Origin: a virus
IMG/VR virus record: IMGVR_UViG_3300034062_002938
Span: 1-32,216 of that record
Direction: 5' to 3' (one strand)
Length of the DNA: 32,216 bases
A program made the translations under genes and the position numbers. The notes beneath the pieces were generated by a model that saw only the letters and a list, made by a program, of their open reading frames with translations, did not search any database and had not been told where the DNA came from. This document shows, one piece after another, positions 2 to 3,883 of the stretch (its first letter is position 1; the number at the start of each line of letters is the position of its first letter).

Positions 2-466
2 AACACCACCCTAGACGCGGCGATCAACTACGCCGACCACAAGGTCAAAGAACTCTATGACCAAAAGCAAAAGCGCCGTCACGCCCGCGCCCTGATTGCT
101 AAGTTGCTTGAGGGGATGGAGCAGGAGGCCGTTTTCGCTCGATCCTATCAGCATGGATATAATGACGCCCTCACCGAAATACGGCGCAGGGTTGGAGGTG
201 GGGTTGTGAGCACGACAGCCATCATCACTGATGCAAAAATTCAGCAAATGCACGGGGGCAATTTTGGAAGTCGCAGCCCAAGAGAGGTTGTTGACGAAGG
301 TGTGTGGTCAATTGGCTTTGGTTACAGCACTGGATCGACGTGCTGCTACATTTTGCACTCTCACAAACTTATCACGAACCCAAAAAGCGGAAGATACATA
401 AGGCTGACCAGAAAAGGCACTTTGTATTTTCGAGCGCTTGCAAAGCAAAAAGGCGTTCTGACATGA
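2..466 (+). CDS. 5'-truncated early phage protein, possibly two proteins sharing one frame
   Basis: This frame is open from the window edge to a TGA at 464-466, giving at least 154 residues; the true start lies outside. The first ~65 residues are charged and helical (KQKRRHAR, then LLEGMEQEA). The remainder (from about residue 69) has a different character, with Gly/Tyr-rich and basic stretches. A strong Shine-Dalgarno GGAGGT at 194-199 sits 6 nt before an in-frame GTG at 206, so an 86-residue protein (206-466) may be made independently. No stop separates the two halves. The next gene starts in an ATGA overlap. I recognise no family. It is the first visible member of a plus-strand operon of small genes. 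Whether this is one protein or a fused pair cannot be settled from sequence alone. Confidence 0.6.
   Translation, partial: NTTLDAAINYADHKVKELYDQKQKRRHARALIAKLLEGMEQEAVFARSYQHGYNDALTEIRRRVGGGVVSTTAIITDAKIQQMHGGNFGSRSPREVVDEGVWSIGFGYSTGSTCCYILHSHKLITNPKSGRYIRLTRKGTLYFRALAKQKGVLT
194..208 (+). promoter_or_regulatory. Internal ribosome binding site and GTG start
   Basis: GGAGGT (194-199) is followed after 6 nt by GTG (206-208) inside an open frame. It is the best Shine-Dalgarno match in this part of the operon and may start a separate 86-residue product from 206 to 466. Confidence 0.45.
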
Positions 467-684
467 CCAACACCACCGACCTACAAAAGCTAGCAGACCT
501 AGCCACGCTTGACGTTGAGCGCCTTGAGAAAGAACTGGACATAACCAACGCTGACCACATTGCGCTGTGGCTTGCGTCGGCTGGTCAAATGTCAATCTCA
601 TATCTGGCCGTCCAAATTGCCAACGCATACGACCGCGCAATAGCCAAAAACAACGAAACCACCAACCAAGGAACAGTAAAATGA
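463..684 (+). CDS. Small hypothetical early phage protein (73 aa)
   Basis: The ATG at 463 overlaps the preceding stop in an ATGA junction, which decides this start over longer readings. The protein is 73 residues, acidic and apparently all helical, with leucine-rich amphipathic segments (LQKLADLATLDVERLEKEL, then HIALWLASAGQ). There is no signal peptide, no clear membrane segment and no recognisable motif. The stop overlaps the ATG of the next gene, so the two are probably translationally coupled. Small proteins of this kind, in overlapping runs outside the virion and replication modules, are often host-interaction or counter-defence genes. That role is inferred from position only. Confidence 0.65.
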   Translation: MTNTTDLQKLADLATLDVERLEKELDITNADHIALWLASAGQMSISYLAVQIANAYDRAIAKNNETTNQGTVK

Positions 685-920
685 CCAACGCAATTCACCC
701 CGCACCAACCGAGTTTTCAGCCGAACAATTGGCCACTGACCCAATCTTGCGCTATTTCCACTACTCACACTTGCCGCCAGTTTTGCAAGCCGCCAGTAAG
801 CCATTCTGTGACTTGGCGCGGCACATTGTCGAGACCTTGCCACGCAATGCCGAGCGCACCGTTGCCTTGCGCAAATTGCTAGAGGCCAAGGACGCAGGCG
901 TGAGGGCTAACGTCCAATGA
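681..920 (+). CDS. Acb2/Tad1-like helical-hairpin protein (candidate anti-CBASS/anti-Thoeris cyclic-nucleotide sponge)
   Basis: The protein has 79 residues, and its start is fixed by the ATGA overlap at 681-684. After a ~24-residue variable N-terminus comes a compact two-helix hairpin: RYFHYSHLPPVLQ (24-36), helix one to ~52, a turn LPRN (53-56), then ERTVALRKLLEAKDAGVRA (58-76). The aromatic/LPP entry, the Pro-containing turn and the ERT-ALRKL-EA second helix match my recollection of the short phage hairpin family that includes Acb2 and part of Tad1. Characterised members of that family oligomerise and sequester cyclic oligonucleotides or cADPR isomers made by host defence enzymes. The family call comes from motif memory, and the sponge function is inferred because ligand residues cannot be verified here. 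It lies inside an operon of small accessory genes, a typical setting for counter-defence genes. Confidence 0.6.
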   Translation: MTNAIHPAPTEFSAEQLATDPILRYFHYSHLPPVLQAASKPFCDLARHIVETLPRNAERTVALRKLLEAKDAGVRANVQ

Positions 921-1198
921 CCGACCAAATCCATGTCTTATTCAGCGAAGAAGGCGAGGCGTGTGCAATTCGGAAATGGTCAAAAGAACCTTTCTATGAC
1001 GCGCAGACCTACGTCCAAAAAGCATTACTCGACACCCTAGCCGCCCGCGTCCTTGAACTTGAGGCCGAGAATAGGAGGCTGCGGGAGGGGTTGGATCAAA
1101 TCGACGCGCTAGAAGCCGATTGGACTAAAGGCGTGGACGAAAATCTAGAGCGCGCCAAATCAATCGCCCGCGCCGCTCTCAAAGGGGGAGAGATATGA
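917..1198 (+). CDS. Hypothetical early phage protein with coiled coil (93 aa)
   Basis: The ATG at 917 overlaps the upstream TGA. The product has 93 residues. The N-terminal half (1-30) looks like a small beta segment (IHVLFSEEGEACAIRKW). Residues ~35-65 form a clear heptad-rich coiled coil (LAARVLELEAENRRLREGL), and the C-terminus is helical and basic. The downstream gene carries a shorter but similar ENARLRKI segment, so the two may be distant relatives or partners through coiled-coil pairing. No enzymatic motif is visible. It belongs to the plus-strand operon of overlapping small genes, and no function can be assigned. Confidence 0.7.
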   Translation: MTDQIHVLFSEEGEACAIRKWSKEPFYDAQTYVQKALLDTLAARVLELEAENRRLREGLDQIDALEADWTKGVDENLERAKSIARAALKGGEI

Positions 1199-1473
1199 CC
1201 AAGTTTGAAGTGACCGATGCGATGGTGGAGGCTGCACAAAGCGGAATACGCAAAGCAGACTGGCCATGGCACACACCGTCGGCACCCATGCGCGCCGCCA
1301 TTACTGCCGCGATTGAGGCTAGTGGTGTCTTGGAGGAAAATGCGCGGCTTCGGAAGATCGTCCAAGACTTCATGGATTGCGTAGTTTTCGACCAACACTT
1401 GGAGACAGACACCTTTTTGGCCAGTCAGTTTCGAGCAGTTTATCGCAAACTCAACAAGGAACCAACACCATGA
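1195..1473 (+). CDS. Hypothetical early phage protein (92 aa)
   Basis: The start ATG overlaps the previous stop at 1195-1198, just after GGGGGAG, a strong ribosome binding site. The product has 92 residues. It opens with a pattern common in small phage proteins, VTDAMVEAAQSGI followed by MRAAITAAIEA (~residues 6-43). That pattern resembles the short domain used in many phage hypothetical proteins that begin 'VTDEMVEAA...'. An ENARLRKIVQDFMD helix and a basic C-terminus follow. No catalytic motif, membrane segment or cysteine cluster is visible. The stop overlaps the next start. The function is unknown. Confidence 0.7.
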   Translation: MTKFEVTDAMVEAAQSGIRKADWPWHTPSAPMRAAITAAIEASGVLEENARLRKIVQDFMDCVVFDQHLETDTFLASQFRAVYRKLNKEPTP

Positions 1474-1778
1474 CACCAGAACAAAAGAAAATCTTAGTAG
1501 ACCGTTTCCTGCAATGGAAACTTCCCGCCGACTTCATGCCAGATGCCGGAATTTCATTTAAGCCCGTCTATAATGAAACGTCGCCTACTGGACCTATGCG
1601 GCATGAGCCAGTAGGAACCAATCTATTCACCGCCGCTCAAGCCATGCAGATGGTCGAGTTTATGTGCGAGGGTTTGAAGGTAACATGCCCAGAGTGTGAC
1701 GGAGAAATGTTTGATATTTATGGGGCAGTTTGCAATATGTGCAACGGCGACGGGGGCGTTTATCCCTATGACCAATGA
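1470..1778 (+). CDS. Small zinc-finger phage protein (102 aa)
   Basis: The start at 1470 forms an ATGA overlap with the previous stop, although the frame stays open further upstream. The protein has 102 residues. The N-terminal 65 residues are mixed (MTPEQKKILVDRFLQWKLPADF). The C-terminus has two close CxxC pairs, CPEC and CNMC followed by NGDGG, about 20 residues apart. This is a compact treble-clef or DnaJ-like zinc-binding arrangement that could bind nucleic acid or a host protein. The opening KILVDRFLQWKLPADF followed by a Pro/Asp turn is frequent in short phage proteins of Gram-negative bacteria. The gene overlaps the next one by 11 nt. The zinc-binding call follows from the cysteine spacing; the biological role is unknown. 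Confidence 0.7.
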   Translation: MTPEQKKILVDRFLQWKLPADFMPDAGISFKPVYNETSPTGPMRHEPVGTNLFTAAQAMQMVEFMCEGLKVTCPECDGEMFDIYGAVCNMCNGDGGVYPYDQ

Positions 1779-2755: not shown

Positions 2756-3883
2756 TCACGCCCTCAACCGTGGCAACCTAGCCACATCCGCGCCATCGTC
2801 TGAATACATGTCTCGAATGGCCATCATATCCACCTTTTCAGAGCCGACAATCCGCCCCCCCATAAGATCGACAATGACTAGACCCCAAAACCAGTTATTG
2901 ATGGCGTGCGCGGCATAGTCCTCTATCTCGCCCCAAGGCAGAGCGCACCCGACTTCCATCACATCCACACCAGACACCGCGCCAATCTTGCCCGTGGTAA
3001 AATGCTGATACGCGTGCGTATGGCCAGAGATAAAGCTAGAGGTTAATTCGTTCGCCGCGCGCTGTGGCCCCGTCTTGCCGCCAAAAGCCCGTCCTGCGCC
3101 ATTTGTGGGGTGGTGTGATATGCCGACGCCTTGAATGAACATCACCTCGCCATAGGGCCGCGTTTTCCAGCCGAATTGCGCGAAGTTGGTCTCTAATTCA
3201 TTTGAGAACATGCCCGCCGTCTCAGGGTTGGCGTTTTCAAACCTGTGGAGGCGATTCTCGTGATTGCCCAGCGTGATGTCTAGCTTTGGATTCCAGTCAG
3301 CAGGCTTGTTGTCATGAAACGCAATTAGGCTTTCCTTCTGATTGTCGAGGTCTTGCTTGATGGTCGGCTTTAGCCTTGCCTTCAGCGTGTCGTTCTTGTC
3401 ATGGAAGGATGCACCGTCAAACGTTCCCCAGTCACCGACTTGAACGACGCGACCAACCTTGCGATCAGATCCAAATCTAGCCGCCCATGCCAGAACCTCA
3501 ACGCGATGTGGATGCCTGGGGTCTTGGTGCAAGTCGCCAATCATTAGAACGCGCTCACGTTCGCCAGATGGATCGTAGGCGCGCGGGTTTGGAACCGACG
3601 CCGGAAACAGGACTTGCCTTGGAACCGGCTGGACGTAGCGCGAGGGCGTATAGAGCGACCAATCAGGCTTAAGGCCAAAATACTTTTCCGCCAGCGCGAC
3701 CCGAACGTGCAGGGTTTTGCGGCTTGCAGTAAAGCCATCTTCCATTGCCTTTTCAGCGGCGACCTCAACAGCAGATCGACCAACACCAAACACGTTTTGC
3801 GGTCGATTGCCCATCTTGAGCGCCATTTCGACATAAGCAATCGCTTGCTCTGCCGTGGCGCGGTCTAGCTTAGGCGGCGGCAT
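2756..3883 (-). CDS. Calcineurin-like metallophosphoesterase with N-terminal helical/HTH-like region
   Basis: The ATG at 3883 sits in a TAATG overlap with the upstream spanin gene. A TTG at 3898 is an alternative. The protein has 375 residues. Residues ~8-70 are helical and look like an HTH/adaptor. The metallophosphoesterase core shows GDLHQD (116-121), GDWGTFD (150-156), GNHENR (206-211), SHHP (256-259) and GHTH (287-290), which together supply the expected two-metal ligands. It should hydrolyse phosphodiesters or phosphomonoesters; the substrate is unknown. Such enzymes in phages are sometimes called DNA-repair exonuclease-like or serine/threonine phosphatase-like. It is the last gene of the late operon, directly after the lysis genes, which suggests late expression. 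All key motifs are intact. Confidence 0.88.
   Translation of the reverse strand: MPPPKLDRATAEQAIAYVEMALKMGNRPQNVFGVGRSAVEVAAEKAMEDGFTASRKTLHVRVALAEKYFGLKPDWSLYTPSRYVQPVPRQVLFPASVPNPRAYDPSGERERVLMIGDLHQDPRHPHRVEVLAWAARFGSDRKVGRVVQVGDWGTFDGASFHDKNDTLKARLKPTIKQDLDNQKESLIAFHDNKPADWNPKLDITLGNHENRLHRFENANPETAGMFSNELETNFAQFGWKTRPYGEVMFIQGVGISHHPTNGAGRAFGGKTGPQRAANELTSSFISGHTHAYQHFTTGKIGAVSGVDVMEVGCALPWGEIEDYAAHAINNWFWGLVIVDLMGGRIVGSEKVDMMAIRDMYSDDGADVARLPRLRA

Follow-up and report, generated by a model that had tools for sequence, protein, structure and literature searches.

The 79-residue protein encoded near one end of the viral DNA analysed here belongs to a widespread phage protein family that is probably homologous to the Acb2/Tad1 hairpin (PF24729), as a distant sister clade, and on balance we favour its being a signal sponge of this divergent Acb2/Tad1-like clade with an altered pocket. 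The window, that is, the whole 32,216-nucleotide stretch of IMG/VR record IMGVR_UViG_3300034062_002938, has terminal ORFs that are open at both ends. The preliminary description of this DNA had named the protein as a candidate Acb2/Tad1-like sponge; the call is partly supported, in the sense of distant homology, for which profile–profile comparison with controls, reciprocal HMMER searches, reciprocal searches of BFVD and the RyR domains fused or adjacent to members of both families speak, but strict membership of PF24729 fails.

On the plus strand, window positions 681-917 translate without a stop into MTNAIHPAPTEFSAEQLATDPILRYFHYSHLPPVLQAASKPFCDLARHIVETLPRNAERTVALRKLLEAKDAGVRANVQ, followed by TGA at 918-920, and the resulting ORF (681..920) is assigned to the hairpin family from its relatives, purifying selection and PHROG matches. 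A putative ribosome-binding-like AAGGAA, read from the sequence, lies 7 bases 5' of the ATG (668..673, plus strand). ATGA overlaps connect the ORF to both of its neighbours on the same strand, with the upstream ORF 463-684 at 681..684, where translational coupling is likely, and with the downstream ORF 917-1198 at 917..920. Together with these overlaps, the recovery of relatives with 84-91% protein identity and a pN of 0.07-0.17 against a pS of 0.70-0.83 (comparison with seven relatives, synonymous sites being close to saturation) make this more than a chance ORF, and the protein is strongly constrained by purifying selection. All the motifs quoted in the preliminary description, namely the aromatic-x-x-LPP entry (here Y-S-H-L-P-P), the P-R-N turn, ERTVALRKL and AKDAGVRA, are present in the translation. 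The N-terminal extension reported there does comprise about 24 residues ahead of the core, but it is not wholly loose, given that residues 14-26 are modelled as two short helices; the IHPAP-type leader alone is missing from many relatives.

As had been anticipated, the protein is predicted to fold into a helical hairpin, with two long helices running antiparallel. AlphaFold2, supplied with 54 relatives, gave a model with a pLDDT of 92 and helices at residues 14-19, 21-26, 33-52 and 57-75. On the plus strand, the two short N-terminal helices (codons 14-26) correspond to 720..758 and end in the aromatic YFHY entry, the first long helix (codons 33-52) to 777..836, the L-P-R-N turn seen in both sequence and model (codons 53-56) to 837..848, and the second long helix (codons 57-75), which carries the nearly invariant E..LRKLLEAKD..VR of the alignment, to 849..905. 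A two-helix hairpin layout is common by itself.

Over the hairpin, the protein matches two PHROGs without an assigned function, phrog_1761 at E 3.6e-28 and phrog_5120 at E 9.3e-17; we refer to their family as F. The phrog_1761 consensus differs from the 79-residue protein in an N-terminus that is about 75 residues longer. A weak match to phrog_1454 was also obtained (E 0.009), an entry that T4 Vs.4 likewise touches (E 0.0007). Of 50,697 phage records searched by tblastn, 317 from many unrelated groups contain family F, which is also present in many viral contigs and in prophages or contigs assigned to Proteobacteria, Actinobacteria, Planctomycetes, Cyanobacteria, Myxococcales and others. Its core reads [DE]-P-I-x-x-F-F-x-Y-x-H-L-P-x-x-L-Q-x-V-S-x-P-F-x-x-L-A-x-x-I-x-x-L-P-x-x-x-E-R-T-x-A-L-R-K-L-L-E-A-K-D-x-x-V-R-A, with an invariance of helix 2 that is partly inflated by the retrieval of loci through patterns on LRKLLEAK; orf31 of DSS3phi2, a member found by tblastn, departs from that stretch. 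Most members are stand-alone proteins of 60-80 residues with no partner domain. Some F proteins (loci L025, L029 and L046) have a C-terminal extension of ~100 residues that looks helical and ends in an acidic, proline-rich tail. Almost all copies in annotated records are labelled hypothetical protein, and the family may already be familiar to specialists through recent work on new sponge families.

The surroundings of the gene point to mobility. In line with the operon proposed earlier, the ORF is part of a plus-strand run of eight ORFs, mostly ATGA-coupled, that ends at 2606. Its neighbours on that strand include an ORF open at the contig end with no confident family match (2..466), a 73-residue ORF (463..684) and a 93-residue ORF with a heptad-like stretch (917..1198), neither with a family match, and, three genes after F, a 102-residue ORF with a CxxC...CxxCxG zinc-ribbon-like end (1470..1778). 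In Ochrobactrum phage OH, a ribbon similar to that of the latter ORF is fused ahead of the F domain (L083:765-1130), and at locus L088 a zinc-ribbon-like stretch lies in frame upstream of F. When eight further ORFs from this end of the window were compared with 161 F-bearing loci, none had a match, even though F is up to 91% identical there. From such near-identical copies amid unrelated neighbours, F appears to move as a single accessory gene.

Sequence searches with the 79-residue protein against Pfam, NCBIfam and the PDB returned no meaningful match. The PF24729 (Acb2_Tad1_hairpin) profile, with a Pfam cut-off of 27 bits, matched neither the protein nor, in a direct search, the window record, whereas T4 Vs.4, run as a control in the same test, scored 71.4 bits; on a strict reading, the HMM match whose absence the preliminary description had named as refuting its proposal is missing. 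Three F members reached 15.0-15.7 bits against PF24729, the highest value for any F member tested and below the same cut-off of 27, and PF24729 was nonetheless their best Pfam family. A HEAT_2 match was set aside as noise, its 14.7 bits lying far below that family's cut-off of 27.7.

Profile–profile comparison addressed distant kinship. PF24729 members were sorted into subgroup A (YRVLSEQEK... type), subgroup B (p26/PaMx33 type) and subgroup C (Gram-positive/actinophage FSYHPPK... type). With hhalign, F matched C at a probability of 87-90% (E 2e-6 to 5e-6, score 33-34), compared with a score of 40-43 for the accepted pair B-C, and showed no similarity to the proteobacterial Acb2 subgroups A and B, which include the experimentally proven type. 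Against F, none of 300 column-shuffled versions of C scored above 22.9, alignments in reverse scored about 10, and 163 decoy protein families from the same loci scored at most 20.9. A deeper F alignment lowered the F-C score to 29 (72%, E 3e-5), and the distant F members alone gave 23.5 (32%); this drop counts against homology, because true homology would usually raise the score. BirksAndSocks, Monty and Salk, considered as possible intermediates, were not useful.

Reciprocal HMMER searches over 36,544 six-frame segments, with weak matches considered up to E 5, linked the same two groups. Outside F, 55 of the 60 weak matches of the F model were PF24729 members (best E 0.0022), and outside PF24729, 114 of the 120 weak matches of the C model were F members (best E 0.002), the remaining 5-6 being about what chance would give. 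The F model matched one PF24729 member at E 2.7e-4, and the C model matched one F member at E 6.6e-4; as the members are interrelated, these matches are not independent tests. Structure searches in BFVD behaved similarly. After the F proteins themselves, the named matches of the F model were mostly Acb2/Tad1 hairpins, which made up 9 of the first 36 rows (ranks 9, 12, 15, 16, 18, 19, 26, 27 and 36, each weak alone), and a search with one group C protein, modelled at a pLDDT of 94, retrieved about twenty rows labelled Acb2/Tad1 and then F at ranks 25 and 32. In the PDB, the group C model matched T4 Vs.4 over 59 residues (Z 6.9, rmsd 2.2) as well as Acb2 (Z 6.8) amid other two-helix chains of similar Z. 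For the F model, Foldseek and VIA listed only generic helical bundles from the PDB, without Acb2/Tad1, an absence that is no evidence against kinship.

A further connection comes from RyR domains, which occur in proteins that bind or degrade Thoeris signals (PMC13232231). The entry M4PQN8, common to both BFVD searches, was identified by organism and length (188 residues) as SUFG_00048 of Sulfitobacter phage phiCB2047-B (L509:14472-15038, minus strand), a protein that joins an RyR domain (E 3e-10) and a true hairpin of the PF24729 type (E 5e-8) in one chain. A second fusion of this kind is encoded at 2956-3534 of locus L538, and such RyR-Acb2/Tad1 hairpin proteins are possibly two-signal sponges. 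The same architecture, with the F hairpin in place of PF24729, was found on two related contigs at L443:3617-4207 and L431:3191-3790 (RyR E 9e-12 and 3e-10), in both cases as a single ORF with a GAGGAG site ahead of a GTG start, and at loci L451 and L470 an RyR gene lies directly downstream of F. In a set of 80 RyR loci that includes some of the contigs just named, F was fused or adjacent in 4, and PF24729 was fused, adjacent or near in 5. RyR was found near F at 5 places per 1.91 Mb (~2.6 per Mb), against 288 places per 2.3 Gb (~0.13 per Mb) in the phage collection searched with tblastn, an enrichment of about twentyfold that is an upper estimate, the background having been measured less sensitively. 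The RyDEP/RyR-domain anti-Thoeris proteins (PF02026; PMC13232231) represent a different domain family that partners F in a few relatives, and the window has no RyR domain.

Family F resembles subgroup C of PF24729 (FxYHPPKxxQ...SREKSLALTKLEEAVMWANAAIARNE) in length, aromatic entry, two-helix layout, profile similarity and RyR fusion or adjacency, and also in an LP/CP turn followed by E-R/K-x-x-A-L-x-K-L-x-E-A. It differs in being about 4 residues shorter at the entry, in its two short pre-hairpin helices, in falling below the Pfam cut-off and in the residues of helix 2. The PF24729 hallmarks Thr43 (KT/TK motif) and Met50-Trp51-x-Asn53, which subgroup C keeps, are replaced in F, where the aligned positions are an invariant Arg64 at the Thr43 site and Asp71, Ala/Cys72 and Val74, so that D-A/C-x-V-R stands instead of M-W-x-N; the residues that F keeps are Arg64, Lys65, Glu68, Lys70, Asp71 and Arg75. 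If F binds a nucleotide, its pocket, judged from these residues, is chemically different. The replacement of Thr and Met-Trp-x-Asn by Arg/Lys/Asp/Arg on helix 2 suggests a ligand, or a ligand orientation, other than that of the characterised Acb2 and Tad1 proteins. This change in the conserved polar residues is consistent with the earlier guess that the protein marks a divergent subgroup which may choose a different ligand.

Acb2 consists of a short N-terminal element and two long antiparallel helices (PMC10419184). F shares this layout with the Acb2 proteins of T4 (Vs.4, PDB 7uq2) and PaP2/PaMx33 (p26, PDB 8h2j/8h2x) and, like Acb2, is an accessory gene in unrelated tailed phages; it has, however, no profile similarity to these proteins, and it lacks their GY entry and the KT...MW/MA motifs of helix 2. 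Full-length Tad1 carries an N-terminal antiparallel beta sheet ahead of its two helices (PMC12043709), whereas the model of the 79-residue protein has no strand at all.

Three other explanations were weighed against that of a divergent sponge. F could be related to Acb2/Tad1 by descent and yet serve as an oligomerisation or adaptor hairpin, which would bring partner domains such as RyR or a zinc ribbon together in multimers or make contact with a host protein, with no nucleotide binding of its own. The absence from F of the ligand-associated PF24729 residues would fit this role, as would the occurrence of the hairpin alone, after a zinc-ribbon-like domain in phage OH and after RyR at L431 and L443. 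However, most members are stand-alone proteins of 60-80 residues, and a mere scaffold would hardly be expected to keep the nearly invariant charged run of helix 2, so we regard an adaptor role as unlikely. Still less probable is that F is an unrelated small helical protein, for instance a regulator or a host-takeover inhibitor, whose likeness to Acb2/Tad1 is convergent. Many two-helix folds exist, Pfam does not match the 79-residue protein, and the F-C score falls as more distant members are included, all of which would be compatible with convergence; against it stand F-C scores well above those of shuffles and the 163 decoys, the reciprocal behaviour of the F and C models in searches, and the parallel RyR fusions in F and PF24729.

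The genomic position of F could also be read as that of an accessory protein of packaging or head assembly. Of 240 F loci, 54 have a gene of the terminase-large-subunit type within ~4.5 kb on the same strand; F of Vibrio phage martha 12B12 is flanked by a gp27-like gene and the next large gene for packaging, and in the Autographiviridae phage phiV141 it is just ahead of the portal-capsid block. Elsewhere the setting is different: F is near thymidylate synthase in the N4-like DSS3phi2, near topoisomerase and RNA ligase in the T4-like ZZ1 and Henu6, among small genes at the far end of the genome in the mycobacterial BigNuz, and far from the terminase in the window, and near-identical copies are found amid unrelated genes. 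Moreover, location does not discriminate in favour of packaging, because a PF24729-type Acb2 relative in the Mu-like Pseudomonas phage 5400 likewise sits between lysis and packaging genes. As linkage to the terminase is not conserved, a packaging role is set low and appears quite improbable.

As a sponge of the divergent clade, the 79-residue protein would fold into a short N-terminal element and two long antiparallel helices and, by analogy with Acb2 and Tad1, would most likely self-assemble. The entry and the second helix would form pockets that could then bind and hold a nucleotide second messenger, presumably one made by a host defence system such as CBASS, Thoeris or similar, and with the messenger held, the defence effector would not be triggered. 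Going further, and only tentatively, F might be an unrecognised clade of the Acb2/Tad1 hairpin superfamily, very widespread, whose members sequester a defence nucleotide other than those bound by known members through a rebuilt helix-2 pocket with invariant Arg, Lys, Glu and Asp, and are sometimes joined to RyR as a two-signal sponge. If F is a sponge clade, a counter-defence gene open to testing would be added to many phages in which it is now unlabelled, and its altered residues would hint at an immune signal that is unknown or unassigned. Fusions of RyR to F and to Acb2 offer a ready means to test which signals are countered together.

Some minor observations concern the wider genomic setting. 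Of the T4-like Acinetobacter phages, ZZ1 carries F (L513, 4953-5186) and Ac42 a PF24729 Acb2 relative (L514, 4974-5198), both between topoisomerase and rnlB; an exact positional swap of Acb2 and F was rejected, the flanking small genes being in unmatched order, and the region is treated as a shared variable locus and not as proof of replacement. In the remainder of the window, the minus strand encodes terminase, portal, major head protein, head closure Hc3 and DNA-ejection-like genes, and PHROG matches to head closure Hc3, DNA ejection and internal virion protein agree with the earlier assignment to a podovirus. The closest genome relatives of the 79-residue ORF are from Sphingobium, Novosphingobium and other sphingomonads, and sphingomonad bacteria are probably the hosts of this phage. 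Near RusA and helicase genes, a minus-strand ORF at 31831-32184 matches the C-terminal DNA-binding domain of bacterial DnaA (PF08299, E 2.9e-26) without the ATPase part, and its product is possibly an origin-binding or DnaA-mimic protein.
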